A stretch of DNA of 64,000 nucleotides from Cercospora beticola (Eukaryota; Ascomycota; Dothideomycetes; Mycosphaerellales; Mycosphaerellaceae). The notes beneath the pieces are model-generated. The model was not told where the DNA came from. It worked only from the letters and a program-made list of their open reading frames with translations, and did not search any database. Positions 42,290-63,990 of the stretch are shown here, in pieces (position 1 is the first letter of the stretch; each line of letters begins with the position of its first letter). The translations under genes and the position numbers were made by a program. Location of the stretch: NCBI RefSeq assembly GCF_033473495.1, contig NC_088937.1, positions 248,001-312,000 on the forward strand, given 5' to 3'.

Positions 42290-43267
42290 ATGGGCTTCAT
42301 CTACTCTCAGTTGCTGGCAAAATTGCCGTGCCCAGAGCAGCCTCAAACTGGAAGAACCGTAATCATCACAGGCTCCAATACTGGTCTTGGAAAAGAGGCA
42401 GCGAAGCATTTCGCTCGTCTTGGTGCCGGAAAACTCATTCTCGCCGTGCGATCGATCTCCAAAGGCGAAGCTGCTAAGGCGGACATCGATGCCGCGACGA
42501 AATGTGATAAGAATGTCATTGAGATATGGGAGCTGGACATGACCAGTTTCGATAGCGTGAAGCGATTCGCCAAAAGAGTCAACGATACGCTCGACCGGCT
42601 GGACGTTTTTATCGCAAATGCAGGAGTAGTGCGGAAAGAGTACCATTTGGCAGAAGGGCTCGAAGAGTCAATTACGGTGAACTACATCTCAACCTTTTTG
42701 CTCGCGGCCTTGGTCCTCCCAAAGATGAAGGAGACTGCCAACCTCTTTTCTATTCGGCCTACGCTTGCCATTACCAGCTCCGGTGCTCACGCACACAGCT
42801 CATTCCCACAGAAAGACCTGGCGCCAGAGGGCAAGCTCATCGAGACAATCAGTGATCGGGAAATGTGCACCAAATACTGGGATCAGCAATATCCACTCAG
42901 CAAAATGCTGGAAATCTTCGCCGTTCGCAGCATTGGAGAGCAATCGCCACAGCAAGTCTTCCCGGTAACTATAAATGCCGTAGATCCAGGGTTCTGTCAT
43001 TCCGACTTGGCGAGAGAGCAGTCATCGTGGGTATTTTCGATTATGAAGACGGTTCTTGCGAGGACTACGGAGCAGGGCAGTCGTACACTGTTTCATGGCG
43101 GAAATGGTGACCGGCATACGCATGGGAGATATTTGAGTGATTGCGTTGTTGCTGAGCCTGCTGAGGTGGTTACGAAGAATGGTGATGTGCAAGAGAAGCT
43201 ATGGAGTGAGCTCTGTGAAAGGCTGGAGAAGATCTCACCGGGAGTGATGGAGAACTTCAAGGCATAA
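42290..43267 (+). CDS. Short-chain dehydrogenase/reductase
   Basis: NAD(P)-dependent oxidoreductase of the classical SDR fold, 325 residues, one exon. The cofactor site TGSNTGLG is at 27-34, NAG at 110-112, the catalytic Ser at about 163 in ITSSGAH, and YPLSK (Tyr201, Lys205) completes the site. NAVDPGFCHSDL is the usual stretch after the active site. It belongs to the retinol-dehydrogenase/WWOX-like fungal SDR group common in secondary-metabolite clusters, not to the shorter versicolorin-reductase type used by mdpC. It sits at the left end of the polyketide cluster, convergent with the methyltransferase. A role as tailoring ketoreductase or dehydrogenase is inferred from position. Confidence 0.85.
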   Translation: MGFIYSQLLAKLPCPEQPQTGRTVIITGSNTGLGKEAAKHFARLGAGKLILAVRSISKGEAAKADIDAATKCDKNVIEIWELDMTSFDSVKRFAKRVNDTLDRLDVFIANAGVVRKEYHLAEGLEESITVNYISTFLLAALVLPKMKETANLFSIRPTLAITSSGAHAHSSFPQKDLAPEGKLIETISDREMCTKYWDQQYPLSKMLEIFAVRSIGEQSPQQVFPVTINAVDPGFCHSDLAREQSSWVFSIMKTVLARTTEQGSRTLFHGGNGDRHTHGRYLSDCVVAEPAEVVTKNGDVQEKLWSELCERLEKISPGVMENFKA

Positions 43268-43448
43268 ACGATGCGAGGAGTGTCGAAGATGGCCATCATG
43301 GTTCTTATACAATTCTCAGCAGCTTGACGTGGATCGGACATTGTTGGAAACTTAATTATTGACGTAAGAGTATTACTCGCCCAGTAACATTTCGTTGCTG
43401 CTGACAGCGATGACTGTTCTCTATCCATCTGAAAAACACTCTCTCAAT

Positions 43449-44468
43449 CTAGTTCCCCTTCTTTGTTGCTAGAATCAAACTTACCGGGAAAGTGACTTTT
43501 CGTTTCCCTCCCATCGCCTTCTTCAACTCAGACAGCATAACCTCAATGTCCGAGTACCGCTCTCCAGCCTTCTCACGGTAGTTGGGATACACAGACGTGA
43601 GGTAGTTAGCAATGTCCTCCACATCCCACTCATGTTGCCAGTATTGGGAGATGATTTTCTCGGCGGTAGTTTCTCCTTCTCCTCTGCGATCGACCCTCTT
43701 CAATTCAAAGTCGTAGCCCGAGCGGCTGTTGAAGAGCAAGTCTACATTGCTGTTCCACTTATGACGCTGCACAGACTCCCACTCCTGCGGATCAAATCCA
43801 ATGTTGTCCATCCAGCTTCCCATCGTTTCTGCGGCACGGAGATGGAAACCCTCAGCCGGAGATCCAATGAAAGGAAGCAGGAATGTACAGATTCGGGTAG
43901 CAATGCAGTCGTACAAATCGTTCAATTCTGCTCGGTTTTCACCATCTGCGAACAGCGGTCTCCCGTAGAAGTAGATGGCGAGCGTGCCGGAAGGACGCAA
44001 CAGCGTACGAAATGCTTCGAGACTTTTGACCCGATCCAAGAGCGGCATGCATTCGCTAACAACGACAAGATCTGTCTTTCCGTTGCCAACTTCTTGAGGC
44101 ACAACACCATTACTCAGCTGTTCTGCTGGACTCTGAACGAATGTCATTCGCGAGAGCATAGGCTCCGAGATAAGTGTTGGAGCTGCGGCGAGAGCTTTGG
44201 CGTTGACATCGGATCCGACGATGCGAATGTAGTAGTTTGCGAGGCGCGTGGCGATATTTCCGGGCCCGGTACCAACATCGTGGGCAATTCCGCGACCAGT
44301 GTTGCCGTGGCTGTCATGGTATTCATTGATCAGCTGAAAGAAGTCTTCGCTAGGCGAAGGGCGAGAAGTAATGTAATCGTGCCAGAATTTGGTATCTGTG
44401 TCGATTGTAGCGAAGGGAGCATCCACCTTGGGAGCCGTCGATTCAGTGAGTGTGATCGTCGACGACAT
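43449..44468 (-). CDS. SAM-dependent methyltransferase
   Basis: 339 residues from the ATG at 44,468 (MSSTITLTESTAPKVDAPF); an in-frame upstream extension has no good start. The SAM-binding motif I is DVGTGPGN (64-71), with the acidic end of strand 2 in IVGSDVNAKAL and motif IV around DLVVVSECMPLLD. Class I fold, related to trans-aconitate/Crg1-like methyltransferases. It shares a 345 bp divergent promoter with the questin-oxidase-like gene, which suggests co-regulation in the polyketide cluster. Emodin-type pathways often include an O-methyltransferase (emodin to questin); this family is not the usual fungal O-MT type, so the substrate is open. Confidence 0.85.
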   Translation of the reverse strand: MSSTITLTESTAPKVDAPFATIDTDTKFWHDYITSRPSPSEDFFQLINEYHDSHGNTGRGIAHDVGTGPGNIATRLANYYIRIVGSDVNAKALAAAPTLISEPMLSRMTFVQSPAEQLSNGVVPQEVGNGKTDLVVVSECMPLLDRVKSLEAFRTLLRPSGTLAIYFYGRPLFADGENRAELNDLYDCIATRICTFLLPFIGSPAEGFHLRAAETMGSWMDNIGFDPQEWESVQRHKWNSNVDLLFNSRSGYDFELKRVDRRGEGETTAEKIISQYWQHEWDVEDIANYLTSVYPNYREKAGERYSDIEVMLSELKKAMGGKRKVTFPVSLILATKKGN

Positions 44469-44813
44469 GGTGCAGATCGAGTATTGATAGAATAGCCTAC
44501 AGAATGATTTGTACGGGCGAGTGAAACATTTATTCTTCATAGTCGGCCACAATGTCGCAACATAAAACGTTGCCAGTCTCAGGTCCGAAGCCCGCTCTCG
44601 GAGACATGCCATTCATATTTACACTAGAATCACGACGACTTAGCCGGTCGGGCAACAATGGCAGGTCCTGGCGTCGCTTCGGGATAGCCTAAGAGTGCAG
44701 TTCGCATCCTCTCTCCCACCCGATCAATCTTTTGACTCTTCAGAGAGCCTTGACTCAACAAGAACAGCTCTACTCCTACTTGTTGCGATTTTGTTTTGGA
44801 AATATTCCCCGCC
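44469..44813. promoter_or_regulatory. Divergent promoter, methyltransferase / questin-oxidase-like
   Basis: 345 bp between two head-to-head starts. No defined operator could be picked by eye. Arrangement alone suggests shared control. Confidence 0.4.
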
Positions 44814-46205
44814 ATGACAGCCACCGCAACAATTTTGCAAGCCGGGCAGGATGGCGCGGCGTCTGTGAAGTCGACAAAAACTTCAGCTTCACGAATCGAT
44901 CTTCACATGCCTAATCCAGGGATTGCAAGGCTTTTTGACAACCCCAAAGACAGCCTCGAAACTGCAAACCGCTTGCTGCAAAAGAATCATGATGAATATC
45001 ACATGTTCTGGAGAGATGTCGGAGGACACAATCATATGGCTCATGCTGTTCTGACCACTCTTGCACTGGGTGGGAGTCCGAGCGAGCTACAGAGAGCTTA
45101 TGACGATGGACTTGAGGTTCAGCGACCGATGCCTGCTCTCGATGAGGAACTGGTGGGAAAGTTGAACGATCCCTCAGTGCTCCGTTCGCACATTGGCAAT
45201 ATCCACGATTACACAAATTTCCTCGCATTCTTCGAACGCGAGATCGATGCCAAGGGATGGAGAGAAGTTATTACAGAGTATTGCTTCTCGAAGTCAGAGA
45301 ATGCGGAGCTCATGCTTGCGCAACTCTACGAGGGTGCTTTCCATCCTATCATTCATCTCGGACTGGGTGTTGAATTCGAGCAACCTTCAATTGTCGCTGA
45401 AGCTCTTGCTCAGGCTGCTTCGCATGACTCTGCTGGTATTCCTAAATTCCTGCTCGATGCAGAACGCCACGGTCGTGCATCTGTAGAGCCTCGAATGTCG
45501 CTAAAGGATTGTTTCCACGTACTCCGAGAGGATGAAACGATCAAGAATGCTGCACAGCCACAAATGGGTCCAGTCAGAGTGAGGGAAGGTGTGATGAAGC
45601 GTGCTTTCCAGCAAATCACACGCTTGGCAGCAGCGTACAGGGTCCCATCATCGGAGCTGGACAAGAGCATCGCAGAGATGATCAGTTGCAATGCATACAT
45701 TTCTGCTGCTGCACAGCGAGCAGGCAAGCAGAGGAAGATCGACTTCTTCCACATGCACAACGTGACCAGTTCAATCTTTTTATCTGTGTTTGCACAGCAG
45801 GGCTGGATCAAATTGGAAGACAAAGTCCGACTTGTAGAGTGGAAAGCTCGGATGGATTTAGTCTGGTACGCTGCCAGCGGAGCAGCGCCTCTAGACTTGA
45901 GTTTCTTGACTGATTACAAGCCAACTCACAGCGCTGGAATGAGCTGGGTTGAGTTGTATCAAGCAATCAACAAAGCTCACGATGATGGTCACGTTGCCAA
46001 GTTTGTGAGGGCAATAAAAAATGGCGAGTCTGTGGCTAAGCCATTCGAGGGTGCAGATTTGGAACGATTCCCTGTGAATGACGAATTGTGGCTCAAGGTA
46101 GCGCAAATGGCTTATGATTCGACCTTGGAGGTTCCCACCGACCTCCGCTGGGTCTTCGGTGCTGGATACGATCCCATGTGGAAGCTGATGCCTGATGAGG
46201 AGTGA
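44814..46205 (+). CDS. Questin oxidase-like protein (DUF4243, Baeyer-Villiger type)
   Basis: 463 residues, single exon, start chosen at the ATG in GCCATGA (44,814). The family includes geodin GedK and monodictyphenone MdpL, which oxidise an anthraquinone with ring opening to a benzophenone-type acid, and sterigmatocystin/aflatoxin-cluster relatives. Visible family motifs are HNHMAHAVLTTLALGGSP near the N terminus, GAFHPIIHLGLGVEFEQPS followed by VAEALAQAASH in the centre, and HMHNVTSSIFL toward the C terminus, with conserved His residues. Its presence beside an atrochrysone PKS suggests that the final product is a seco-anthraquinone, xanthone or benzophenone, not a plain anthraquinone. This is inference. 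Confidence 0.88.
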   Translation: MTATATILQAGQDGAASVKSTKTSASRIDLHMPNPGIARLFDNPKDSLETANRLLQKNHDEYHMFWRDVGGHNHMAHAVLTTLALGGSPSELQRAYDDGLEVQRPMPALDEELVGKLNDPSVLRSHIGNIHDYTNFLAFFEREIDAKGWREVITEYCFSKSENAELMLAQLYEGAFHPIIHLGLGVEFEQPSIVAEALAQAASHDSAGIPKFLLDAERHGRASVEPRMSLKDCFHVLREDETIKNAAQPQMGPVRVREGVMKRAFQQITRLAAAYRVPSSELDKSIAEMISCNAYISAAAQRAGKQRKIDFFHMHNVTSSIFLSVFAQQGWIKLEDKVRLVEWKARMDLVWYAASGAAPLDLSFLTDYKPTHSAGMSWVELYQAINKAHDDGHVAKFVRAIKNGESVAKPFEGADLERFPVNDELWLKVAQMAYDSTLEVPTDLRWVFGAGYDPMWKLMPDEE

Positions 46206-46396: not shown

Positions 46397-47191
46397 CTAG
46401 GCCGATGGCCCAGTACTTGGCAGGTACGAATGCAGGAAAGGAAAGAAGTGCCTCAACAGCCCCATCAATATACACTTTGGAGTTCCTGGTGGGAACTTCG
46501 CTGCCCCATTGGCATTGGTCACGCTGACATTCTTCATGTCATATATGCCCTCCCTGTCTTCCGCTGCTTCGATCATTGCCGCTGCCAAATCCAGGTATGA
46601 GATAAAACTCTCTTCATCGTCAAAGTTCAGCTTGTGTCCACGCTGTATGTCGACGGACAGGCCACCTGGCTTGATAAATACAGTTGAAACCCAGTCACTT
46701 TGGGCCCGAAGGTACTGTTCAGTAATTTCCAGGTCTTTGTAGACATGTGATGCTGCTGTGAGCATCACCGGTCGAAACCACCAAGGCATTTTTCTGGCGA
46801 GATGATCATCGATTGTGGCCGAGGAGAGCAAGATCAGTCTGGGAACCTTCATTCCCGGTGGTGATTCCTTCTTCAGCTTTTCTAAGGCAGCAATCACGCT
46901 CTTCGCTTGATCTTGACCAAGGCTACAGCCGGGGATGTTGTCGTTCGTTGTGACCACCATAAAAACAGCATCGGTGTCTTTGATGCATGATGCGATGAGG
47001 CCCACGTCTTGGATGTTGCCCTCAAATATCTCGAGTGACTTGCTATCCAGTATTTCCGGAACCAAGCGGATGAGCTTAGCCTTGTTGCGACAGTAGGCGT
47101 TGATTTTGGCTGCCAATGGCGACGCCAGAAGATTTTGGATGAGTGCAGTGCCACAATTGCCAGTTGCACCCAGGATTGCGTACGTTGCCAT
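46397..47191 (-). CDS. NmrA-like NAD(P)-binding oxidoreductase
   Basis: 264 residues from the ATG at 47,191 ([14 protein letters not shown]). The Rossmann motif GATGNCG is at 8-14, followed by YCRNKAKL as the beta2 region. It belongs to the atypical SDR/NmrA group that includes AvfA, OrdB (AflX) and MdpK of anthraquinone-derived pathways, where members act in oxidations or reductions of the polycyclic core. The middle has [20 protein letters not shown] and a helix [17 protein letters not shown]. The C-terminal tail [12 protein letters not shown] resembles the MdpK/AvfA group. It lies tail to tail with the questin-oxidase-like gene, 191 bp apart. Confidence 0.85.
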
Positions 47192-47463: not shown

Positions 47464-47966
47464 TTATAGAGACAGTAGCCCTTGCTCGACCAGGTGTTTC
47501 TGCAACTTTGGCATGAAGTCTTTCATAAATGCCGAATCGACCATCTCCTCCACACTTTGCACCGCTTCGCCGTTTTCGCTAAACGTGAGAAATACTGCAT
47601 ACTCGTTCGTCCAGTCTCCGAATGGTGTGTCTCCAGCCGAGACTGCGTAAATAACCGCCTTTCCCTGCGCGGCATCGTGGACGATGTGCTTTATGTCGAG
47701 CTAACTATGGTCAATCAAGCGACTTCACGAGGAGTGTGTAAGGGTCAAAAAGGCAGTACCTTGTAATTCCTGACGGTGTCGATCAGCTTCGGGAGCATGA
47801 ATTCGACCTCAGGCTTCGATCGTGGTGGATGTCCCAGCGAAAACGGAAGTGTGCGTTGCGTGTAGCCTTCGCCCATAGCACCCATCATACCCTCCGGTGT
47901 CCATTCTTTCCATCCCTGGATGAACTTGTCAAGCGTGGCAGCTTGAGTTTTTGCGTCGGCTGGCAT
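47464..47966 (-). CDS. Small NTF2/SnoaL-like protein, copy 1
   Basis: 147 residues, two exons (47,966-47,760 and 47,700-47,464) around a 59 bp GTACTG...GTTAG intron. Starts MPADAKTQAATLDKFIQGW. The fold is inferred from size, an N-terminal long helix with WKEW, and the end VDSAFMKDFMPKLQKHL. NTF2-like proteins include scytalone dehydratase, SnoaL cyclases and small cluster-encoded dehydratases. It is a clear paralogue of the gene at 61,498-62,107: same start, same first exon of exactly 69 codons, same splice position. It is divergently placed from the GMC oxidoreductase. It may help cyclise or dehydrate a pathway intermediate, but no catalytic residue can be assigned. Confidence 0.82.
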
Positions 47967-48365: not shown

Positions 48366-50169
48366 ATGTTCCTGAATCTCAATGCTGTCGGGTTTCTGTC
48401 CCTCTGCTTGACGAATGTTGTTTCTGCACGACCGGCGAGAAATGCTAGAACAAACTATGTGCTTGTTGGCGCAGGACCTGCAGGATTTGTACTGGCTGAG
48501 CACCTCACGAGAGACCCCGATGTGAATGTTGTTTTACTGGAGGTTGCAACCAATGGTGACGACACAGCCGATGTCTACGGTATGCTTTGGAACTGATTTT
48601 GACCATGGAGAAATAGAACACTGACACAATTCTTGTGTGACTTTAGTGCCAGGAAACCTGTTCAATATATTCGATAGCGTGTGGTACTATCTCTCCCAGC
48701 CCGATCCGACTTTGAATGGCGCGCAACCAGACAGCGCTCAAGGAAGATTGGTCGGCGGAGGAACGGCAGTCAATGCGATGCTGCACTGCCGTGGATCTGC
48801 GTCGGTCTTCGACGAATGGGCAGAAATATCCGGCAACGAGGGACTATCCTGGGGGAACATCCTGGAGGCTTTCAAAGAGACCACACACTGGACTGATGCA
48901 TTGGAAGCCGATTATGAGCAGCAAGTGAACACTAGCTCTTTTGGAAACGGTCCAGTGGAAGTAACCCGACAGAGAGATGAATTTCCTTTCGATAATCCAT
49001 TCGTTGACACTATTGCGACAAACCATAACCTTCAAGAGATCGATTTCGCCTCAGGCGGCGGCATCGGTGTCACAAAAGGGCTTGTGACGATTCGCGCATC
49101 AAACTCCACTCGTTCTTACGCTTACAACACTTTCGGATACCTCGCGAACACAAGGCCCAATTTCCAGCTCATCACAAACGCATGGGCGTCAAAGATTGAA
49201 TTCGACGGAAAGACTGCTACAAGTGTCACGTACCACGATACTGTGACCAACACAACACACACACTTTCGGCGGATGAAATCATCGTGACGGCTGGCACGA
49301 TCAACAGTGCCCAACTGCTCATGTTGTCCGGGGTTGGACCGGCGGATCAGCTCGAAGAACTCGGCATCGAAGTTGTGGAAGATATTCCAGGCATCGGCAG
49401 CAACCTTATGGATCACCACTTTGCAGTGATCCAATACAATACTACAGAAGAGCAACCAACCCGATGGAAGTACGAGAACAACGCAACATGGGCAGCAGAG
49501 CAAGACGCACTCTGGATCGCCAGCGGAGATGGTGTCCTTGGAACTGACTGGGGCGATGCAATGGGAGCTATCAGACTTCCTGACTCTGTCTTTGAGGGCA
49601 CAGGTGACTTCTACACCAAACTGCCAGCCGACCGTCCACACATCGCATACATCTACAGTAACGTGGGCACTCAGCCAGAGCCTAATGCCACTGCATTGAC
49701 AGTCTGGGCGGCCATGGTGCAACCAGAATCGAGGGGCAATGTCACACTGGCAACAACAGATTACCGCGATCCGCCACTCATCTATGCCAATTTCTGGGCG
49801 ACTCCAGGAGAAAAGGCTTTGATCAAAGCAGGCTACCAAGAAGCTCGGAAGATGTTTTCAGCTCCGGGGCTACAAGAAGTGATCCCAGCGGAAACCTTTC
49901 CCGGCACAAATGTCACAGAAGCGAACGACGTGTGGGAAGCTATCATCGAAACATCTCGAAGCTGGCATCATCAATCTGGTACCGTCTCACTCGGATCTGT
50001 CTTGGACGCCAACTGGAGAGTGAAGGGACTCAAAGGACTTCGAGTAGTTGGAGCAGCTTCCATACCGCAGATCCCAACTTGCCCTGTCCAGGCCTCGGTC
50101 TACGCTTTGGCAAAAGTTGCCGCGTCTGACATCGCGACTGCGGATGGCATCAGTGGGACAGCTTATTAG
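48366..50169 (+). CDS. GMC-family FAD oxidoreductase with signal peptide
   Basis: 578 residues, two exons (48,366-48,579 and 48,647-50,169) with a 67 bp intron that restores TADVY-VPGNLF. The N terminus MFLNLNAVGFLSLCLTNVVS looks like a signal peptide, ending near ARPARN. FAD site GAGPAG is at residues 35-40. GMC signature 1 is in GRLVGGGTAVNAMLHCRGSA and signature 2 in GTINSAQLLMLSGVGP. The active-site His region reads SWHHQSGTVSLGS and the C-terminal end IPTCPVQASVYALAKVAA. The family covers aryl-alcohol and glucose oxidases, patulin synthase, and the non-oxidative cyclase versicolorin B synthase. It has many N-glycosylation sites (NNTT-like), consistent with passage through the secretory pathway. 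Being inside the cluster suggests a late tailoring or cyclisation step. Confidence 0.88.
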
Positions 50170-52078: not shown

Positions 52079-55000
52079 ATGACGAAACACAACTCGAAAG
52101 ACGATATGGCGGTCGAAGAGGCAATGGGCCTGGCATACTTTTCGAACGAATTTCCTCCAGGCGACGTTGCTACCGTTCTTCGAAACATTCGATTCCTGGC
52201 TCAGGACAGAAGGCATCCTCTCTTGGAATCGTTCCTTGCAAAGGCTACCGAAGCGGTTCGGAAAGAGATCCAGCACCTTCCAGGCGAATTGAGAAACACA
52301 TTTCCAGCTTTTCCCTGCATCACTTCGCTTTGGGGTGAGCACGAACTCCGCCAAGGAAGCTTGAGTGGCGCGATAGATGGCGCTCTCCTTTGTGTTGTTC
52401 AGCTCGGGATCTACATCAGGTACGCATGGTAGAATGTGTGGTCGAACGATACTGACCAAGTCTTCTCAGCACCCTTGAGACAGGAGCAAGCCGTACCCAA
52501 GTCGATATTCGCCAACAAACGCTGCTTGCTGGTCTAGGCATTGGGTTGTTGGTTTCCTCCACAGTAGCGTTGTCACCAACGCTCTATGATTTGCCAGCTC
52601 GTGGCAGTGAAATCATTCGGATTGCCTTCCGTCTAGGGATATTCGTCTCTGGTGCGTACTATCACATCCTCCACAAGACAACCATCCCTCCGTGATCTTC
52701 CTTGGCCGATATAATGGCCTTGGTGCTAATTCGAAGGCACAGATACATCGAAGCTACTCGAGCCAGTGAAACAAGATGGCTTCCCAGATTCATGGGCGTA
52801 TGTCGTCCATGGCGTTTCGTCAGGCGATGCACAAATGGAACTGGACGTCCTGCACGCTCGGAAGGTAAATAATCGACATAATTCAGATGCAGACATGGGC
52901 TGATCAAAGTCACAGAGCACTCCACGATCAGCTCAAATATTCATTAGCGCCAAAAGCCGTACCTCAGTGACGATCAGCGGACCACCTGCCCGACTCAAGG
53001 CCCTTTTCCGAACATCTGCGTTTTTCAGAGACCGAAAGCATGCAGCTTTGCCGGTATACGCAGGCTTGTGCCATGCCAGTCATCTCTACTCAATGGACGA
53101 CGCAAAGGCCATCGTGCACTCCGAAGCACAATCTCCACTGTGGGTACCAGTTTCCGAAGTCTTATCTACAAGCACGGGCAAGCCCTTTTCCGCGGCCAAT
53201 GGACCTGAGTTGCTGGAGCAGATTGTGTTTGAAATTTTGACCAAAGCTATAGTGTGGGAGAACGTTGTCCAAGGGTTCCTGGAACGAGTCAAGCATACGA
53301 CCGTCGCACCAATCGAGATCCAGATATTCCGAGCATCACTACCCTCCAACGAGCTTGTACAGACTTTGGAAAAGACGATTTCACCATCCAGGATCAATTT
53401 TGTCGATATCGTCGCCATCTTTGACAGTGAACTATCACAGCACAACCATGAGCCCGGCAGGGCATCTCAAAGTAAAATTGCTGTCGTTGGAATGGCATGT
53501 CGAATGCCTGGTGGCGCAGATGACACCGATGCACTCTGGGAGATTCTCGAACAAGGCTATGATTTGCACAAGAAGGTACCTACGGATCGTTTTGATGCGG
53601 ATTCGCACACCGACACGAGTGGAATGAACGTGAATGCTAGCCATACGCCTTACGGATGCTTCATCGATGAACCAGGGCTCTTTGATGCAGCGTTCTTCAA
53701 CATATCTCCGAAAGAGGCAGAACAGATCGATCCAATGCAACGGCTCGCGCTTGTTACAGCGTACGAGGCGCTAGAAAGAGCAGGCTATGTCGCCAGTAGA
53801 ACATCTGCTAGCCATCAAAGTCGAGTGGGAGTTTACTACGGACAAGCGAGTGATGACTATCGAGAAGTCAATACCGCGCAGGAAATCGGGACGTACTTCA
53901 TTGTGAGTGATGATCTGAGTTGAATCGACTAACATGAAGCTGACCTGAACAGCCCGGAGGGTGTCGAGCGTTCGGCCCTGGTCGTATAAACTACTTCTTC
54001 AAGTTCTCCGGCCCGAGCTTCAGCTGCGATACGGCTTGTTCCTCGAGCTTGGCCACTATCCAGGTATGCTTAGACCCTTTCCATGCGTTTAGCACAGGAC
54101 AATTTCGCTGACATGGATGACCAGATGGCTTGTACCGCACTGTGGAGTGGAGATGTCGATACCGTCGTGGCAGGTGGCATGAATGTCTTGACCAACTCAG
54201 ACGCGTTCGCTGGTCTGAGCAAAGGCCATTTCCTTACGAAGACGCCAAATGCATGTAAGACATGGGATACAGAAGCTGATGGCTACTGTCGTGCGGACGC
54301 AATTGGTTCGATTGTCTTAAAAAGGCTGGAAGACGCGGAACGGGACAATGACAACATTCTTGGAGTGATACTTGGGGCCGCCACGAATCATTCCGCACAC
54401 GCAGTGTCTATAACTCATCCGCATGCTGGACACCAAGCGGATCTCTACCGTCAAGTTCTCGGCAAAGCTGGCGTTGACCCACTTGATGTTGATTACATCG
54501 AGATGCACGGTACTGGAACGCAAGCTGGAGACTTTGAGGAGATGAAGTCTGTCTCGGATGTCTTTGCACCGAGCACTCGAAGACGACAAGCAGATCGGCC
54601 TCTTCATGTTGGTGCGCTGAAAAGCAATATTGGCCATTCAGAGGCTGCTGCTGGTGTTTCAGCTCTATTGAAGGTGCTGCTTATGTTCCAGAAAGGCCAA
54701 ATACCGCGACACATTGGCATTAAGAACGGGATGAATCCACGCTTGCCCAAGGATATGGACCGGCGTCACCTACGAATACCTCTGACTCAAGTCCCGTGGG
54801 AGGCCACAAATGGCCGAAAGCGGACAGCAGTCGTCAACAGCTTCAGTGCAGCTGGCGGAAATACTACGCTCTTGCTGGAAGAGGGGACAAGGTCGAAGCA
54901 CTCCGATCAAGATCCTCGGCCATCTCATGTCATTACTGTGTCCGCGAAAGGGAAAGCATCATTCAAAGGCAATCTTGAGAGACTACTGCAGTATCTCACG

Positions 55001-57832
55001 GCGTACCCCGAGTGCTCGATCTCCGACCTGGCGTACTCGCTAACAGCTCGCAAGTCACACTACAACTACCGCTTCGCTGTGGAAGTCTCGCACAAGGGAG
55101 CGCTGGAGAGTAGTCTGAGAAGTGCGATAAACTCGGCGGATACAAAGCGATCGATTTCAACCGTGGGACCGCCCGCAATTGCGTTCGCCTTTACCGGGCA
55201 AGGCTCAATGGATCCTTCCTCGAACTTGGAAATGTATGAGCATTCTCCAACCTTTCGCTCAGAGATCGATCGCTTGGATGGCATTGCACAGAGACAAGGC
55301 TTCCAGTCTTTCATCAGCTCTATCGATGGAAGTCATCCAAAGGACTACACGCATACACCAGTGGTCACCCATCTCGCAATACTTTGTGTGGAACTTGCCT
55401 TGGCCAGATACTGGGAGGATCTAGGCGTTAAGCCGGACTTGGTAATCGGTCACAGTTTGGGGGAGTACGCGGCGCTCTGCGTAAGCGGTGTGCTTTCAGC
55501 CAGCGATGCTATCTTCCTCGTAGGAACGAGAGCTCTTATGCTGGAGGAAAAGTGCACGGTCGGCAGCCATGCCATGCTGGCCGTGAAGACGTCGGTGTCT
55601 CAGATCGAAGACTCCGCTGCCGGCCTCCAACTGCAGTACGAGGTTGCCTGCATCAACGGTCCTGATGCGACGACAATATCTGGAAGCACCGACGACATCT
55701 CAGAAGTGCACAGAGTTCTCAGCGATAAGGGCTTCCGATGCGTGCGATTGGATGTTGCGTTCGCCTTCCACTCCGCTCAAACAGATCCCATACTCGATAG
55801 CTTCGAGCTGGCCGCGCAGGGCGTCGTGTTCAATAATCCCAGGCTTCCGGTATTGTCACCACTGCTAGCAAGGGCCGTCTGCGATGACAAGAGTATTAAT
55901 GCAGGCTATCTGCGTCGGGTAAGTTTGAACTTTTAACAATAATCACCGACACATACCCTGCTGACACTTGCCTGCATCTAGGCTACACGAGAAACGTGCA
56001 ACTTTGCTGGTGCTCTCCAGAAAGCCAAGGCCCAGTCTTTCATCGACGACGACACTGTCTGGTTGGAGATCGGTCCTCACACAGTGTGCACCAGCTTCAT
56101 TCGATCAACCATCCCTAGCACAAAACTCACGATCGGATCACTCCGAAGGGGCGAGAATAACTGGACGAATATCTCACGTGCACTCGCGTCGCTTTATACC
56201 GCCGGGATCAGTATCCGATGGTCTGAGTTCCATCGCTCCTTCGAGGGATGCTTGCGGTTGTTGGACCTGCCGACTTACAGCTGGAACAACAAGAACTTTT
56301 GGATCCAGTACAATGGTGATTGGGCCTTGACTAAGGGAAATACATTCTACGACAAGAAGAAGGCCAATGACACCGTGCAGTCTGTGTCTGTCGCACCATT
56401 CCACACATCCACTGTCCAACATCTGATTGAGCAATCCGTGGAGGGAACCTCTGCCAAGATTGTAATACAGTCAGATCTGATGCAACCAGACTTCCTTGCT
56501 GCAGCAAATGGTCACCGCATGAACAACTGTGGCGTCGTCACTTCATCAATCCACGCTGACATAGCCTACACTCTCGGGAAGTATCTTCACAGCTTATTCT
56601 ATCCCGACGCTCCAGCTCCTGATATGGATATCGCGCACCTGGAGGTCACGAAGGGACTTGTTGCCAACAGCAACCCGAACTCGAAGCAGCTGATACAAGT
56701 CGAAGCACGAACAGACGATATTCGTTCTCGCATCGTTCACCTCGCATGGCACAACGTTGACACCAACGGAGTTCTTGGCGACTCGCCTTTCGCAACCGCG
56801 AAAATCATTTACTGCAATGCTCAAGAGTGGTTGGTTTCGTGGCTCCCACTCACACACATGATCGAAGGTCGGATCCAGACCCTAGAACACCTAGCACAAT
56901 GTGGTTCCGCGAACCGGCTGTCACGGACAATGGCATACGCACTCTTCGCCAACAGTCTTGTCGACTACGAGAACAAGTATCGAGGCATGCAGACCGTGGT
57001 CATGAACGAGTTCGAAGCTTTTGCTGATGTCGAGCTCACGAAGGAGAAGTCTGGAACCTGGACAGTACCTCCGTACTGGATCGACAGCGTGGCTCACCTT
57101 GCAGGATTCGTCATGAATGTTTCGCATGCTAGCGATACGGCCAAAACGTACTGTGTCACTCCTGGCTGGCAATCAATGCGTTTCGCTCGTCCGCTGGTGG
57201 CTGGCGGGAAGTATCGATCTTATGTGAAGATGATACCCACCACGGAAGATCCGACGATATATCTCGGCGATGTCTACGTGCTACAGGAAGGAGTGGTCGT
57301 AGGAATGGTTGGTGGTATTCAGTTCCGACGGTTCCCCAGGATACTACTGAGCCACTTTTTTTCTCCTCCCGACTCCAGTGCCGCATCAGCCCCGGCTTCT
57401 CAAGCGCGAAGGACTTCGGCGAGCACTGTTGCTGGTCATACTGTCGCTCCCCCGAAAAGTGCTTTGCGGACGAAATCCATGGAACCACAACCACCCGGGT
57501 CACTAGTCGTGGATTTGGTCAAGGAGGACGTGCTGCATTCGCTCACTCCAAACAAAACGACAGAGGTCGTGGATGCAGTCAACAAGCAAATCTCGCAAGC
57601 GAACAGCACGGCGATAAAGGCGGTAGCACTTATTGCTCTTGAAGCGGGTTTGGAGCTCGAAGACCTCCCCGACGAAGCGTCTTTCAGCGACATTGGAGTT
57701 GACAGCTTGCTGAGCTTGGTGGTCTCTGAGAAGTTCAGGCAGCAGTTGGGGATCCAGGCTGGGAGCAGTCTTTTCCTCGAGTATCCAACTGTTGGCGCAC
57801 TGAAGAGTTGGCTGGAGGAATACTATGGGTGA
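52079..57832 (+). CDS. Non-reducing polyketide synthase, SAT-KS-AT-PT-ACP (atrochrysone type)
   Basis: Builds a non-reduced octaketide for an anthraquinone pathway. Seven exons: 52,079-52,419; 52,470-52,651; 52,743-52,864; 52,916-53,902; 53,953-54,063; 54,125-55,918; 55,982-57,832. They give 1795 residues, typical for MdpG/ACAS. The SAT domain (about 15-370) starts with [13 protein letters not shown]; its GxCxG motif reads GLGIG at 135-139, so the usual Cys is Gly137. KS (about 400-830) has Cys573 in DTACSSS, His709 in EMHGTGT, His752 in [12 protein letters not shown] (about 935-1240) has Ser1025 in [12 protein letters not shown] (about 1325-1635) has His1357 in ANGHRMNNC and Asp1547 in [11 protein letters not shown]. 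The single ACP has Ser1754 in DIGVDSLLS. There is no thioesterase or reductase domain, which fits the separate MBL enzyme. The start gives the normal SAT N terminus. Confidence 0.95.
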
Positions 57833-58086: not shown

Positions 58087-59956
58087 TCAACGACTCATTG
58101 AGCCTACCTGAGTGTAGGCAGATGACAGCACAGCTTCTTGTATTGTGGTTCTGACTACCTTTCCGGTGGCGTTCAGCGGGAACTTCATTAACTCAAGGTC
58201 GTGAAGACAGAGCAGATGATCTGGAGTGTACACCGGGCCAAGAACCTGCTGCACGTGGTCAATTGCTGCACTTGGTGAGTGCGTGCCCATATTCGCTACA
58301 ATTGCGACTGGCCTATTTCCATGGACCGTATGAGGTATTGCCACAACACAGACCTGTTCCTTCTCGTTAGTGATTGCTTATCGTGTCAATTCACATGAAT
58401 CAGAATCTTACCTGTGTCCCGAGGTACTCCTGCAGACAGTTTTCTATCGACGAAGGCATGATCAACGTGCCGTCGCTGTGCTCGATAGCGTCTTTACGTC
58501 GGCCCAGAATGGTGACGATGCCCTGGTCGTCCATAATAGCAACGTCTCCAGTATTGAACCAACGGGCAGTAGCGTCGACCAGGAAACTGTCCGGGTCTGC
58601 ACCACCCAAGTAGTGCTCGATGATGCTGGAACTGCTGATATGCATCTCTCCTGGCTTGCCTCTCAACGCAATCCGATTCCTTCTTCGATCCCAGACTCGA
58701 ACTGTTGATCCAGCTGCCACGGTCCCAGTTGGGCAGACGCCCCCATGAGTATCAATAAAAGTTGGTGGAGTATCGAAGAATGCCCATTTGAACGCAGCCC
58801 CGCCCTCCGACATGCCATGGTGAGTACAGATTGATGCCTTTGGAAAGATTCTGGCACACTTGTCGAGAACGTCGTTTGTGACGGCGTCGCCACCGATTTG
58901 AATACTTCGCACGGAGCTTGTGGCAAGACTGCAACCCTTTGATACCTCACTCAGACGATGTACCATTGTCGGTGACAGTACAATAAACGTCGCTCCGTGA
59001 TTTTCGATTGCGTCCAGGGTGTCCTCAATGGCGAAGTTTCTGCCAGGCATGACAACCGTACCTCCAGCTTTCCATGTCTGTAGTACCTGAGCCGGTGCAA
59101 TTGCACGAGAGTTATGCAGCTGTTGTAATGCTCGCACACCATTGTCTTCGTTGATGAGCCAAGACCATGAATGCAACATGTGGCTCATGCCCTTTACTCG
59201 CACCGGGCAGCCTTTGGGCTTGCTTGTTGTTCCGGATGTAAAGGTGATCGAATGAATACGGTTTGGATCATCCATTTCTAGTCTCTGGAAGAGTTCCTGC
59301 TCAAAGCCGTGGCTCAGGTTCCCAGTAAGAAGCTCGGAGAACGAGTTGCAATCTCGAGAGATCGTGGGACTGGAGGCAACGCACAATGGCGGCGCCAGCT
59401 TCAGCTTTTGGGCCGCTTCGCGTACCGTCTCCGCTGCATTTTGGTCTGGTAAAACGACAATCGAAGGTCGAAGTGTTCGCAGAGTGTCCTTTAGATGATT
59501 AGAGTCCGATGCTTTGAGCAAGGTCATGTCCATTGTGATCATCGTCAATCGCATCAAGATGGATGCCCATAACAGAATGCAGAATTCTACTCCGTTTGGT
59601 ATGACAATGAGAATCTTTGATCTCTCTCTGGCTCCCAACGTTGTAAGGTTGGACCCCAGTTTTAGAGCGGCGTGGTGTAATTCGTGGTATGTTAAGGTCA
59701 TGCATTTTAGCCCCGGGTTCGATGATAGTTTTCCTGGATTCGAAATGCATTCTGCTTTTAATCTGGCATTCTTGAGATGATCATGTGGTTGATGAGGGCA
59801 TATAACTGCTGGTTCATTGGGACTTCTGTGCAGGCCTTCTTGCAAGTGTTCGAAGATTGATCTGTGTATCGACAACGGACCTCCTGAGATCTGGGCCAAT
59901 TCTTCACTAGCATAAGACTTCTGATAGTCAGACGTTGTCATATTCGAAGTGGCCAT
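58087..59956 (-). CDS. AMP-forming acyl-CoA synthetase/ligase (ANL superfamily)
   Basis: Activates a carboxylic acid as acyl-AMP and normally passes it to CoA or a carrier thiol. 603 residues, two exons (59,956-58,412 and 58,353-58,087) with a 58 bp intron joining LGTQ to VCVVAIP. Core motifs are ITFTSGTTSKPKG (237-249, P-loop), HHGMSEGG, WFNTGDVA, GRRKD, and the C-terminal lysine in NATGKVV. There is no carrier or reductase domain, so it is a stand-alone ligase. The monodictyphenone cluster has a comparable gene (mdpI) with no settled role. It may reactivate atrochrysone-derived acids or make a CoA ester for side-chain transfer. Start at 59,956 avoids a longer frame that begins without ATG. 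Confidence 0.88.
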
Positions 59957-60544: not shown

Positions 60545-61104
60545 TCAGCTCTCGCCTCGTACCGCTGAAAGTCCCACCAATGCCCCTATTAGTGGGAAGA
60601 AGGACCTGACCAGGTGCAGATAACGCCATCTGCTAACCAGATCTTGCGCATGACTCAATGCCGTGCTGCCTCCAAGGCCGTTGGCCTGTTGAGCTTGCAG
60701 CGCAAAAAGTGTGTTGTTCGTCGGCGCCATGATTGTCAAAGTAAAAGGTATCATAGTGAAGGTCAACAGCGCTGCGAAGGCAAACCGCAGCCACGATCTT
60801 CGTTTCTTTCGTCTTCTGAAAGTGGCAAGGGTGTACAACGAGCAGGTCGCGATCGATAATCCTGGGGCGATTCGATGTCCGTAGTGGTATAGACTGTGCC
60901 ACTGTTCGATCAGGAGTGGCCCGCTTGTGACCGTATCGAGGAGGACTGGCACTGCGAGCAGCGAGAGACTCATCATGGCACCTGTTCAGTAGCTGTTCAG
61001 TATGGTAACGGAAATTTGACAGTTGATCAGTTACCTGACAGAAAAGTTCCAGAAAACACGGCGGCCGTAGGAAGACCCGTGCCGGGAGACTGTCGTTCAG
61101 GCAT
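60545..61104 (-). CDS. Anthrone oxygenase (DUF1772 family, GedH/HypC-like)
   Basis: Cofactor-free membrane oxygenase that converts emodin anthrone to emodin. 168 residues in two exons: 61,104-61,035 and 60,981-60,545, across a 53 bp GTAACTG...GAACAG intron. Exon 1 starts MPERQSPGTGLPTAAVF and the splice creates SGTFLSGAMMSLSLLAVPVL, the family's first membrane helix. Later family marks are QWHSLYHYGHRIAP, MAPTNNTLFALQ and VSRWRYLHLVRSFFPLIGAL. Four hydrophobic helices are visible. No EthD-type decarboxylase partner (GedI-like) was recognised fused or nearby. It is divergent from NTF2-like copy 2. This fixes the pathway as an anthraquinone route. Confidence 0.92.
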
Positions 61105-61497
61105 GGCGGGGATCTTCGAACGATAGTAGTTTCTCTGGGAGCTGGAGAGTATTTGTCGGGCTGATAGTTATGCATGCAAAGGCAGAGTCGTCCACAAGGT
61201 GGTCAATGATAATAGTCGTGATTTGGCGCCGTGTTTGCGGAACACATGAAGCCAACAACCCTGGTTGCATGGAAATTGCAACCGGTGATTGAACGATGGG
61301 AAACTATCATCCGGCCGATAGAACGTGTAGAGGCGGAGCTCGGACTCGTGTTAGAACTAGTGCTCCGGATCAAGCCCGCCTGGAGAGACCGCGTCTTCGA
61401 TCTTGCAAGCAAAGCCTATTCGCTCGCAAGGTCATTCCATCTATCCTGACGAGATTGCAGAACCAAGAATCCATCTGTGTACACCTCAATTACGATC
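61105..61497. promoter_or_regulatory. Divergent promoter, anthrone oxygenase / NTF2-like copy 2
   Basis: 393 bp between head-to-head genes. No defined site is called. Confidence 0.4.
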
Positions 61498-62107
61498 ATG
61501 CCGGCAGATGCACACGTCCAAGCTGCAACTTTGCAGAAGTTTCTCGCAGCATGGAAGTCCTGGAACGCGGAGTCCTGGCTGGCTGTCTTCGACGACAGCT
61601 TCGAGCATATCACAATGCCGCTCAATCTAGGTTTGCCACCGAAGACTAAAGCGGAAGTTGCAGCAACTCTGCCGACGATGATGAGCGCCATAAGAGACTG
61701 CGAGGTACTGCGTCCAATTGGAATGACGAGAGATGTACAGCTTGTTGATGGTAAACTTTTAGTTCAATGTGCACGAAACGGTGCATGATCCGGATCGAAA
61801 CAAAGCTGCTGTGTACTGTACATCGAAAGGGGTCACCGACGTGGGTTCTTGGAACATGGAATGTAAGTAAGGGCAACTCTACTCTCAGTGTCATGCTTGC
61901 GCCACCGAGTATGACTATGAGCAATAATCGAGCCGCTGTACATCCGAGAGAACGCCACTGATGGACTCACGAATCACAGATGCTGCATTTATAACTTTCA
62001 ACGAGACGGGTGACAAGGTTGCCAAGTTCGAGGAGATGATCGATTCGGCATTCATGAAGGAATTCGCGCCCAAGTTCCAGAAACATATGCGTGAACAGGC
62101 CGCCTAG
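61498..62107 (+). CDS. Small NTF2/SnoaL-like protein, copy 2
   Basis: 144 residues, three exons (61,498-61,704; 61,763-61,862; 61,980-62,107). Starts MPADAHVQAATLQKFLAAW and ends MIDSAFMKEFAPKFQKHM, closely matching copy 1 (47,464-47,966). The first exon is again exactly 69 codons and ends before GTACTG. A second intron of 117 bp splits the codon of Tyr in NMEY-AAFITF; copy 1 has no intron there. Unspliced, only a 103-residue fragment is visible. Placement next to the anthrone oxygenase suggests that the duplicated pair works on different intermediates of one pathway, as dehydratase, cyclase or binding protein. The precise reaction is unknown. Confidence 0.83.
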
Positions 62108-62386
62108 ACTTAGATGCAGCGTCTTCATGTGACACTCGTAGTGTCTAAAAACATCTCACAGCTATGTTTCCACTCCCTGTTGAGTCGAATGTTGAGAAAT
62201 GCTGCCACTGCGGACGACGAATCTTGCTTCTGCACGTAACGTATATATTCTACGCCGTAGAAGAGAGAACGAGAGGAGACCACACTCTTGAACTCAAACT
62301 GATCGAGAGAACGGTTGGCTTTGTAGCTCAGAGGATGTCTGCGGGCACCGACCTAGTATCACAGCTATAGAATTTGTACAACTGAT

Positions 62387-63990
62387 CTATGACCAGTCAC
62401 CGTCCAGTAGGTCTTCGACCCTTACACCGTTCTCGATATCTCGTTTGACCTCGTCGATCGACCAAGGCACAAACTTGTGACCCGGAGGAAAGTTGGTGTT
62501 CTGAAACGGAGCATTGGACGTGAGGTGTGCGAAGGCCTGCCCATACTTCTCGTACGCATAAGCCTCCGGATCATGTCGTGTCACCCAGTTCGGAAACCTG
62601 GTTCGGATCTTGGCAGGCTCCCGTTTGATAGCTTCCCAGTCGGTTTCCTGCTTGAGTTGAGAATTGACAAATGTCATTTTCTGCGCACAAGCGACTCTCT
62701 CGTATCGTAGCAGGTTGTAAATCTTACTTCCAAGGCTGACATTGGTTTTGCCGGACAACTGTAGGCATGTTGCTAATGTGACAGCATCTTCGATAGATTG
62801 CGTTGCACCATTGCCTGAAGTAGGCAAAAAGCTGTGAGCGCTGTCTCCGACTTGTACAACATGCCCGCCTGGAGAAGTCCATTGTCTGCGCAAGTCCCGC
62901 CACATCAAGCGCGAGTGCACAATTGTACCCTTTGGAGTCATGCGGACCAGAGCTGGAATCGCAGGGTGCCAGCCTTCGAGAGCGTTGCCCATAGCATTGA
63001 TCGCTTGTTCTGGTGTGACCTCAACTCCCGGAGTCCAAGACTCGTCAGCGGTACCATCGTCCCGTGGAGTGAAACCCCAAGATATGATGTCCCCGTGAAC
63101 CACAATCCCGCAATACATCTTAGGTCCAAGCCAGAATTGCCACACAGACGAATCATCTTTCCACTGTTCTCGGACGATCTCGTTCTGGAATGCATGTTCT
63201 TTGGAGAACGCCACTCGGTAGATTGCCATGCCACTAGGCTTGGGATTGACTGGACTGCCAGATACCAAGTTTGCCGATGCTGTGTTCTGCCCATCAGCAG
63301 CGATCACGACGTCTGCAGTGACGGCTTCGCCGTTCTCCAGTACCACGCCTCCCTTCCTAGCTGGGATGTCTTCAAAGTATGTTTCCACTCGCGCTCCGTA
63401 CTCGATTTCGATTCCGACTCTCTCTACTTGTCGGAGCAGCATCTGGAAAAATCCAATTCTTGGCTGTAAGGCAGCCGTGTACGGGCCTTTACGTCGCTCG
63501 TGCTCTCCAGGATCGTTGAAAGACGGCTTGCATGGCCCGTATATGTGCTCACCGGAATGTTTCTTGTAGTGCATGTCAACGTCGTACTCCACTTCTTTGA
63601 GTTCGGAAACGAGTTCCGGCCAGTGTCGCAAGACCTCGATTGCAGATGGCTGCACTACCATGATATCTCCTGTCAACACAGGCGACTCACTTCTTTCGAG
63701 GATCTTTAGTACATCGTGACCTTTTCTCCAGCATTCCAAAGCGGACATTAAGCCTCCTGGTCCGGATCCAACGATGAGCACCTTCAATCCTGTGGAAAGT
63801 TGACGCCGAGCCAACGAAGCGTTGCCTCCATTCTGATCGGGCTTTTCGTTCTCAGAGATTTCCGCTGTACCGTTAGCGCCATGGCACTTGCTCTCGGCGT
63901 TGCTCTCTAGTGAATCAATGGTCAGTCAGCCTTTCAAGTAGCATCTGTTGCACAAAGCTCACCAGAGTCGATCAACCACGCAGAGTCCAT
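62387..63990 (-). CDS. FAD-dependent monooxygenase (salicylate hydroxylase-like, MdpD-like)
   Basis: Class A flavoprotein hydroxylase using NAD(P)H and oxygen on an aromatic substrate. Two exons: a tiny first one (63,990-63,963, MDSAWLIDS) and 63,906-62,387, joined over a 56 bp GTGAGC...CACTAG intron, giving 515 residues. FAD site GSGPGG is near residues 57-62, the DG motif reads VIAADGQNT, and the ribityl-binding GD motif is GDSAHSFLPTSGNGATQSIE. An N-terminal extension of about 50 residues (GANGTAEISENEKPDQNGG) precedes the Rossmann fold. A comparable monooxygenase occurs in the monodictyphenone cluster. The start lies 10 bp from the window end, so the first exon should be checked against flanking sequence. 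Confidence 0.85.

Follow-up and report, generated by a model that had tools for sequence, protein, structure and literature searches.

The region C3:290,290-334,600 of the Cercospora beticola genome (about 44 kb) is probably a single biosynthetic gene cluster, whose product would most likely be an emodin-derived xanthone or benzophenone prenylated with DMAPP. It begins at position 42,290 of the window, the 64,000-nucleotide stretch of DNA that was analysed, and positions without prefix refer to this window or, where marked ext, to its continuation on the same contig. The right edge at 63990 drawn in the preliminary description was a window artefact, for the last 22.6 kb of the cluster lie beyond the window and take it to about C3:334,600. 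All 12 genes named in that description were nevertheless recovered within 42290-63990 by gene models built in this analysis, and 11 of the 12 matched Pfam families, the exception being the first of two NTF2-like genes. Two models were compared against database proteins: that of the DMATS prenyltransferase equals P0001 letter for letter, and that of HMG-CoA reductase (HMGR), read from its 1103-aa start, agrees at 99% identity with a C. beticola protein.

At the centre of the cluster lies a non-reducing PKS (52079-57832, plus strand; seven exons, 1795 aa) with the domain order SAT-KS-AT-PT-ACP and without a TE domain (Pfam: SAT 3e-53, KS 1e-72, AT 2e-42, PS-DH in the PT region 6e-6, ACP 3e-11). 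Its SAT motif reads GLGIG at residues 135-139, and the replacement of Cys by Gly in this GXCXG motif appears universal in atrochrysone carboxylic acid synthase (ACAS) enzymes (PMC9890505). Alignments that cover 100% of the PKS link it to proteins of C. kikuchii (92% identity) and C. zeae-maydis (80%), and its listed relatives include several that bear the name atrochrysone carboxylic acid synthase, at 54-60% identity. These marks bear out the earlier description of an atrochrysone/emodin-type cluster, and the PKS is, judged from its sequence, most likely of the ACAS type (emodin family, group V1), with atrochrysone carboxylic acid as candidate product. On the minus strand are a metallo-beta-lactamase (MBL) thioesterase (50610-51612, exons 51454-51612 and 50610-51404; PF00753, 5e-19), whose HxHxDH motif is translated as THWHGDH and which is 55% identical to a paralogue at C3:737 kb, a DUF1772 anthrone oxygenase (60545-61104, exons 61035-61104 and 60545-60981; PF08592, 7.8e-24), of which a second copy (49% identity) lies at C3:675 kb, and an acyl-CoA ligase comparable to mdpI (58087-59941, exons 58412-59941 and 58087-58353; AMP-binding PF00501, 2.4e-41).

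A ring-opening gene is also present, as had been proposed: the DUF4243 gene (44814-46205, plus strand) matches Questin_oxidase (PF14027, 1.1e-101) and is 48% identical to a paralogue at C3:744.7 kb. By analogy with the GedK family it is a candidate anthraquinone ring-cleaving dioxygenase, and the Baeyer-Villiger-like label given to it earlier should be replaced, since questin oxidases are treated as cofactor-free ring-cleaving dioxygenases partnered with a GedF-type reductase (PMC9890505). The candidate partner, an anthraquinone-to-hydroquinone reductase of the GedF/AgnL4/MdpK row, is an NmrA-like NAD(P)H reductase (46397-47191, minus strand; PF13460, 1.5e-18) that is 51% identical to a paralogue in a second emodin-type locus with ring-cleavage genes and has no solved relatives at 1e-3. 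The NTF2-like pair, previously regarded as an odd addition, instead falls into the class of xanthone cyclases/isomerases that includes NsrQ, DmxR10 and AgnL5. NTF2-like a (47464-47966, minus strand, exons 47760-47966 and 47464-47700) matches solved NsrQ (1.4e-47) and Dcr3 (2e-38), as does NTF2-like b (61498-62107, plus strand, exons 61498-61704, 61763-61862 and 61980-62107; SnoaL_2, 2e-7) at 4.6e-33 and 4.3e-32, respectively, and the two are identical at 65 of 147 aligned positions. Both keep the catalytic Glu121 of NsrQ, which points to xanthone cyclisation, and in both His103, the residue of methyl epimerisation, is replaced by Tyr; the translated NsrQ-type paralogue at C3:734 kb has His at this position.

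The other tailoring genes within the window are assigned to candidate roles. A single-exon SDR (42290-43267, plus strand; PF00106, 2e-23) may be a ketoreductase; its best NCBIfam, oxidoreductase PRK06197, scores below cut-off, and the solved proteins that it matches best belong to distant SDRs (5e-17 at best). The SAM methyltransferase (43449-44468, minus strand; PF13649, 4e-9), a candidate carboxyl/phenol methyltransferase, shares 29% identity over 154 aa with the methyltransferase of the second emodin-type locus. Late oxidation may fall to a GMC oxidoreductase (48366-50169, plus strand, exons 48366-48579 and 48653-50169; PF00732, 9e-29; PF05199, 2e-27) with an N-terminal stretch that by eye resembles a signal peptide and with broad solved relatives (choline dehydrogenase-like, 1e-51; patulin synthase, 2.5e-44). 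The FAD monooxygenase (62387-63990, minus strand, exons 63963-63990 and 62387-63906; PF01494, 5e-17), a candidate ring hydroxylase, is related to the solved CtdE (6e-51) and MAK1-like (2e-46) enzymes and is 44% identical over 448 aa to the monooxygenase adjoining the second ACAS-type PKS.

The 22.6 kb beyond the window encode HMGR, isopentenyl-diphosphate isomerase (IDI), AflR, a putative AflS, an MFS transporter, an aldo-keto reductase (AKR), an O-methyltransferase and the DMATS (TIGR03429, 6e-104; PF11991, 4e-97), which is the sole PF11991 match in the genome (one candidate, one match). IDI (TIGR02150, 1.5e-54) and HMGR (1e-137) are each one of two genome copies. The cluster HMGR is 49% identical to the other HMGR gene, has a long branch in the tree, where it falls outside the Dothideomycete sequences (AU p = 0.008), and keeps TTEG, DKK, GQD and KSH, which we take to be the catalytic motifs of the enzyme. 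The DMATS is named tyrosine O-prenyltransferase (4-O-dimethylallyl-tyrosine synthase) by NCBI, and its best solved relatives carry tryptophan-type names, so that the cluster polyketide is only a candidate acceptor. For the putative AflS, neither Pfam nor NCBIfam gave a family match. The AflR consensus, TCGN5CGA, was not enriched, occurring in 2 of 17 intergenic regions (as high in 305 of 500 shuffles) and in 5 of 21 promoters versus 14 of 58 segments.

The identities and motifs of these genes were observed directly, as was a common contig in another species. The C. zeae-maydis PKS, HMGR and DMATS proteins come from contigs of one identical size (628,575), and the locus tags of PKS (CERZMDRAFT_87124) and HMGR (CERZMDRAFT_87116) are 8 apart; for the DMATS, contig sharing with the PKS was seen, adjacency was not. 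Contig size was shared with at least one of the 116 ACAS-type PKS entries compared by 6 of 78 DMATS entries, including those of Bisporella (263,743) and Biscogniauxia marginata (586,660), and this type of DMATS may thus travel with such PKSs.

Comparison was made with the 11 clusters in Table 1 of a 2022 review (PMC9890505) and by homologue searches. The gene set differs from all 11, in keeping with the earlier statement that it matches no cluster that could be named, and the cluster was not found described in the literature searched, a search that is incomplete. The oddity seen earlier in the tailoring set lies elsewhere, in the HMGR, IDI and DMATS genes past the window edge, or in absences. 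None of the five EthD-type decarboxylase matches in the genome lies in C3:290-335 kb (one is at C3:736 kb), the scytalone-dehydratase-type (MdpB/AgnL8-type) dehydratase matches only at C3:740 kb and C5:4.746 Mb, and the cluster holds no close MdpC/AgnL6-type reductase, the best match being the SDR at 22%. A decarboxylase entry is present for 11 of 11 emodin-family clusters, although encD, the entry for the endocrocin cluster, is also placed in another row (Table 1, PMC9890505). These three absences count against the emodin-derived xanthone or benzophenone reading.

The neosartorin (nsr) cluster shares the ACAS-type PKS, MBL thioesterase, anthrone oxidase, a candidate NmrA-row reductase, ring-cleaving dioxygenase, carboxyl methyltransferase, FAD monooxygenase, SDR, two SnoaL enzymes, AflR and putatively AflS (Table 1, PMC9890505). 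It differs in His103 of NsrQ and in having a decarboxylase, both chrysophanol enzymes (reductase and dehydratase), a P450 for dimerisation and an acetyltransferase (PMC9890505); none of these enzymes was found in our cluster, the acetyltransferase being absent among the scanned proteins. The C. beticola cluster has in addition DMATS, HMGR, IDI, GMC, acyl ligase and AKR, and its methyltransferases number one more. The Aspergillus nidulans mdp cluster with xptA/xptB shares the ring-cleaving dioxygenase, a candidate NmrA-row reductase, FAD monooxygenase and acyl-CoA ligase (mdpI), and it has mdpB, mdpC and mdpH (PMC9890505), counterparts of which were not found in our cluster. Its end products are prenylated xanthones, as we propose here, but its prenyltransferases lie outside the cluster, whereas a single DMATS lies inside ours with HMGR and IDI. 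Neither the dehydratase of the chrysophanol-derived clusters (cla, mdp, agn, dmx, Cpur, nsr) nor a close relative of their reductase was found in the C. beticola cluster. The viridicatumtoxin (vrt) cluster holds its own donor synthase. Group V2 aromatic polyketide clusters such as this one include a prenyltransferase of the polycyclic type as well as an isoprenyl diphosphate synthase (PMC4591646, a paper in which the word HMG is absent), and they differ from ours in their nona- or decaketide V2 PKSs and in the class of the prenyltransferase.

Similarity to the dibenzodioxocinone cluster of Pestalotiopsis microspora (PKS8, GME113xx), which is presumably emodin-type and of which we take GME11375 to be a member, lies in this named prenyltransferase (50% identity over 93% of the cluster DMATS); HMGR, IDI and paired NsrQ-type genes are not known from that cluster. 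Among named prenyltransferases of polyketide pathways GME11375 is the closest, which counts for an outcome that is conceivable, though rather unlikely: no xanthone ring is closed, and the product is a prenylated benzophenone or else a diphenyl ether or a dibenzodioxocin, for which the Pestalotiopsis pathway (21 genes with PKS8; PMC9695833) is the model. The ged, tpc and pta clusters, whose products are grisandienes and diphenyl ethers, likewise lack chrysophanol-type enzymes, and pta has one SnoaL protein as well (Table 1, PMC9890505); the two NsrQ-type enzymes with Glu121 and the lack of a multicopper (dihydrogeodin-type) oxidase among the proteins scanned argue for closure. It is unlikely that two clusters adjoin here, one for an unprenylated xanthone or benzophenone (about 42-64 kb) and an unrelated one with HMGR, IDI, transporter, AKR, O-methyltransferase and DMATS. 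The DMATS does start 26.5 kb past the PKS stop, with regulators and the transporter intervening, its NCBI name is that of a tyrosine enzyme, and correction for the number of motifs tested leaves none that the promoters share, the enriched ones having been chosen after scanning hundreds to thousands. Against this separation stand the linkage in C. zeae-maydis, the six cases of shared contig size, and ext 64-87 kb, where neither another backbone gene (among models and ORFs) nor a second KS match was found.

The divergence of the cluster HMGR, with its long branch outside the Dothideomycetes, would suit a self-resistance copy protecting against a product that inhibits HMG-CoA reductase, but this is very improbable, as the gene adjoins IDI, which self-resistance does not need, its motifs are kept and an enzyme type that uses DMAPP is encoded in the same cluster. 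Least probable of the explanations weighed is that the cluster makes beticolins, the chlorinated anthraquinone-xanthone toxins of C. beticola, from whose structure a halogenase and a dimerising P450 would be expected and which, to our knowledge, carry no prenyl group, a point counted against it. The host fits, xanthone machinery is present and beticolin biosynthesis is called unclear in a 2023 review (PMC10202088), but ext 41.5-88 kb contain no halogenase match, their sole P450-type haem motif (ext 86,083) is out of gene frame, and the only halogenase-family match genome-wide adjoins the second ACAS-type PKS.

For a single cluster leading to a prenylated xanthone or benzophenone, every reaction, the reaction order and the product are predicted from sequence. 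The PKS and MBL thioesterase would release atrochrysone carboxylic acid, which would lose CO2 and water spontaneously or through an EthD enzyme encoded elsewhere and acting in trans, and the anthrone oxygenase would yield an anthraquinone. The NmrA-like enzyme would reduce this to the hydroquinone, the central ring of which the questin-oxidase-type dioxygenase would open to a benzophenone. Esterification, hydroxylation, reduction and cyclisation by the methyltransferase, FAD monooxygenase, SDR and two NsrQ-type enzymes would then give a di- or tetrahydroxanthone, with no epimerisation of the methyl group. HMGR and IDI may raise the supply of DMAPP, which the DMATS would attach, with O-methyltransferase, AKR and GMC as putative finishing enzymes, the MFS pump for export, and AflR and putative AflS as regulators. 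More specifically, and as a possibility rather than an expectation, C. beticola and C. zeae-maydis may possess a self-contained polyketide-plus-mevalonate cluster in which an old, fast-evolving HMGR paralogue, outside the Dothideomycete housekeeping line and possibly derived from a lineage of Sordariomycete type, joins a second IDI in supplying DMAPP to the only DMATS, by which a ring-opened xanthone of emodin type is prenylated, decarboxylation being spontaneous or performed in trans from the neighbouring chlorinated-xanthone locus. If true, this would be the first emodin-type cluster found in the literature searched to combine a prenyltransferase with upstream mevalonate enzymes for its donor, and the sugar-beet leaf-spot fungus, a major pathogen of crops, would be expected to make a prenylated metabolite.

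A split locus 350-460 kb away on C3 carries a second ACAS-type PKS (C3:658-664 kb), the only halogenase found and genes missing from the cluster described here. The halogenase (RadH-like, 2e-183; C3:667.5-669.4 kb) lies beside this PKS and is the single match of its family genome-wide, at C3:668 kb. The locus further holds the anthrone oxygenase (C3:675 kb), NsrQ-type (734 kb), EthD (736 kb) and MBL (737 kb) genes, an MdpC-like SDR (C3:739 kb), Scytalone_dh (740 kb) and the DUF4243 paralogue (744.7 kb). Separating two emodin-type pathways in one genome thus provides a concrete gene candidate for the beticolins, namely this second locus.

All 12 genes that the preliminary description had placed at 42290..63990 were found again with our gene models, which came from a small home-made predictor and manual building and were scanned against Pfam and, for some, NCBIfam. 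The genome of Cercospora beticola that holds the window measures 36.07 Mb in 10 contigs, and the model of the DMATS prenyltransferase built from the contig (C3, NC_088937.1) is letter for letter the C. beticola protein P0001. The window cluster is a real emodin-type, ring-opening, xanthone-type cluster, and it is distinguished by an in-cluster DMATS accompanied by an HMG-CoA reductase (HMGR) and an isopentenyl-diphosphate isomerase (IDI) and by the absence of decarboxylase and chrysophanol genes. A literature search covering beticolin clusters, prenylated atrochrysone or xanthone pathways, Cercospora, and clusters with HMGR and IDI, judged mainly by titles and abstracts, gave no description of it among the papers listed; two key C. 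beticola papers lay outside the reach of this search, so a description there is possible.

The cluster continues 22.6 kb beyond the window end (the window numbering is continued here; C3 positions are 248,000 higher). Closest to the edge are HMGR (64,412-67,831, minus strand, 1103 aa; PF00368 at 1e-137 plus a sterol-sensing domain) and IDI (68,195-69,076, plus strand; TIGR02150 at 1.5e-54, above the cut-off), followed by an AflR-type regulator (70,434-71,888, minus strand; PF08493 at 1e-16). A putative AflS-like gene lies at 73,246-74,565 on the plus strand; its product matched no Pfam or NCBIfam family, and we infer the AflS identity only from its position divergent to AflR and a reading by eye. 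The Pfam scan further identified a Zn2Cys6 factor (plus strand, starting at 74,757 or 74,841) and an MFS transporter (77,436-79,345, minus strand). Three plus-strand genes come next, for an aldo-keto reductase (80,811-81,914; PF00248 at 1e-47), an O-methyltransferase (82,268-83,765; PF00891 at 3e-29) and the DMATS (84,313-85,692; PF11991 at 4e-97, TIGR03429 at 6e-104), and an alpha/beta hydrolase in two ORF pieces is on the minus strand at about 85,783-86,593. Between 41.5 and 88 kb a P450-type haem motif occurs once, at 86,083, outside any gene frame.

The non-reducing polyketide synthase (PKS) at 52079..57832 has SAT, KS, AT, PT and ACP domains and no TE by Pfam, and its SAT motif reads GLGIG in place of GXCXG, a Cys-to-Gly change that, according to PMC9890505, appears universal among atrochrysone-carboxylic-acid synthases (ACAS). 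Among the best 120 of 1946 matches, it shares 92% identity with a protein from C. kikuchii and 80% with one from C. zeae-maydis, and the remaining relatives are 54-60% identical, several of them named atrochrysone carboxylic acid synthase. Table 1 of PMC9890505 has a decarboxylase entry for 11 of 11 clusters, whereas the window cluster lacks this gene; chrysophanol reductase and dehydratase entries appear there for cla, mdp, agn, dmx, Cpur and nsr. None of the five genome-wide EthD matches falls inside the window cluster, and the scytalone-dehydratase family was matched genome-wide only at C3:740 kb and on another contig (C5), likewise outside it, which argues for the emodin rather than the chrysophanol branch, or for help in trans.

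Ring opening is indicated by the DUF4243 protein (PF14027, 1e-101), which had been described as Baeyer-Villiger-like. That label is at odds with PMC9890505, which reports GedK, and by homology its family, to be not Baeyer-Villiger enzymes but cofactor-free dioxygenases, GedK cleaving a hydroquinone that the reductase GedF supplies. The adjoining NmrA-like gene is a candidate for the GedF-type partner reductase, a role that it fits by family only. Paralogues of the DUF4243 and NmrA-like proteins (48% and 51% identical, respectively) lie about 9 kb apart at C3:734-746 kb. Searches of solved structures with the SDR, NmrA-like, GMC and FMO proteins returned no pathway-specific relative.

The two NTF2-like proteins, a and b, share 65 identical residues over 147 aligned positions, and both align without gaps to the solved structure of NsrQ (1e-47 and 5e-33). 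According to PMC9890505, Glu121 of NsrQ is the isomerisation residue and His103 is required for methyl epimerisation. Both window proteins have Glu at position 121 and Tyr at position 103, and we therefore predict from these residues a xanthone pathway lacking epimerisation. In this respect the pair resembles the one NsrQ homologue that the cryptosporioptide and the agnestin cluster each have, which likewise lacks the histidine (PMC9890505). A third NsrQ-type protein, translated from C3:734 kb, has both Glu at 121 and His at 103.

Genome-wide, HMGR and IDI were each matched twice, the other copies being on C5, and DMATS once. The cluster HMGR retains TTEG, DKK, GQD and KSH, which we take to be motifs with a catalytic role. 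It shares 49% identity with the C5 copy and 66% with its C. zeae-maydis match, after which the matches listed drop to 48%. In a tree of 41 sequences hand-picked from 120 listed, with C. zeina standing in for the absent C5 copy of C. beticola, 14 Dothideomycete HMGRs form one group (SH-aLRT 97) with the cluster copy outside, and a single clade of Dothideomycetes plus cluster copies was rejected (AU p = 0.008). The cluster HMGR has the look of a paralogue that is old or foreign and not recently duplicated, and the branch leading to the cluster copies is so long (1.7) that the tree does not fix the source lineage. The names given to the DMATS and to its best solved relatives point to tyrosine or tryptophan, and its acceptor cannot be read from sequence; a polyketide is a candidate. 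Tyrosine-type and aromatic-polyketide prenyltransferases fall in one cluster of the similarity network of PMC11443524. The orthologous prenyltransferase of Cercospora berteroae (P0003) is annotated with 411 aa and is missing nearly 40 mid-protein residues; either the annotation is faulty or the gene is damaged.

In C. zeae-maydis, DMATS, PKS and HMGR all come with a contig size of 628,575; the locus tags of HMGR (CERZMDRAFT_87116) and PKS (CERZMDRAFT_87124) are close, and that of DMATS (CERZMDRAFT_114093) belongs to another number range. Linkage across genomes was compared through contig size, which gives equal sizes and not gene distances, for 78 of 120 listed DMATS matches, 116 of 120 PKS matches (four being without a size) and 64 of 120 HMGR matches. 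Six of the 78 DMATS matches shared a contig size with one of the 116 PKS matches (C. zeae-maydis, Bisporella PMI_857, Biscogniauxia marginata, Penicillium vulpinum, Dothidotthia and Aaosphaeria), and among the 64 HMGR matches only that of C. zeae-maydis was also on an equal-sized contig. The very long contigs among these prove little, and the sizes of 263,743 (Bisporella) and 586,660 (Biscogniauxia marginata) are more telling.

Assignment of the window cluster to beticolin was considered and rejected because no halogenase was matched between 41.5 and 88 kb. A RadH-like halogenase (2e-183) is encoded instead at C3:658-675.5 kb, with an ACAS-type PKS that shares 50-53% identity with the window PKS over its three longest matching pieces, an FMO 44% identical to the window FMO, an anthrone-oxygenase match (49%) and an AflR-like match (28%). 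C3:734-752 kb holds the His103-bearing NsrQ-type enzyme together with an NmrA-like reductase, EthD, an MBL thioesterase, an MdpC-like SDR, a dehydratase, a transporter, a ring-cleaving dioxygenase, a methyltransferase and FMOs, and no PKS match was found in C3:720-760 kb. The two stretches look like the halves of another emodin-type pathway; since they are complementary and together would make up a full chlorinated-xanthone set, we propose them as a candidate for beticolin biosynthesis. The genes between the halves at C3:681-691 kb look ordinary in translations read by eye.

Related genes occur on two further contigs. C9:1,639,500-1,659,000 holds a non-reducing PKS (KS piece 58% identical to the window KS), a P450-like gene, an FMO and MFS-like genes recognized by eye, and a DUF4243 gene that is more distant (31%); judged by these predicted genes, it is another aromatic polyketide cluster. 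At C7:1,083,623-1,084,915, a KS 62% identical to that of the window PKS lies in a 2,200-aa open frame, perhaps a paralogue with a different domain make-up.

Co-regulation of the window cluster through shared promoter motifs is unproven. TCGN5CGA, which we take to be the AflR site, was not enriched in the cluster intergenic regions (2 of 17), nor in the cluster promoters (5 of 21, against 14 of 58 background segments), the background here and in the spacing, palindrome and 8-mer selections being ordinary segments rather than promoters and the HMGR and hydrolase starts approximate. Counts as high were reached in 0 of 500 shuffles for GAGN6CTC (8 of 17 intergenic regions; picked out of 832 palindromes) and TCGN2CGA (7 of 17; picked out of 13 spacings), and in 20 of 500 for CCGN11CGG (5 of 17). 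GGCGGACT, picked out of 7,655 8-mers, occurs in 4 of 17 regions and at one site in the other 71.7 kb. None of these four is claimed as a cluster motif. Within the 80 kb examined, GAGAAGGATCTC is confined to the promoter regions of AflR (72,373) and DMATS (84,100), while CTCGGACTCGT is confined to those of anthrone-oxygenase/NTF2-like b (about 61,340) and DMATS (about 84,110); this sharing was noticed post hoc and may be due to chance.

On the other side of the cluster, AT-rich blocks (29-38% GC) alternate with 40-47% GC across 1-25000, GC content being 49-54% in the rest of the window from about 25 kb; this flanking stretch may consist of mutated repeats. Two plus-strand genes, at 28396-29896 and 35984-37153, encode subtilisin-like secreted proteases as judged by eye from their translations, and a tannase/feruloyl esterase (38526-40355; PF07519 at 9e-135) lies directly ahead of the cluster.
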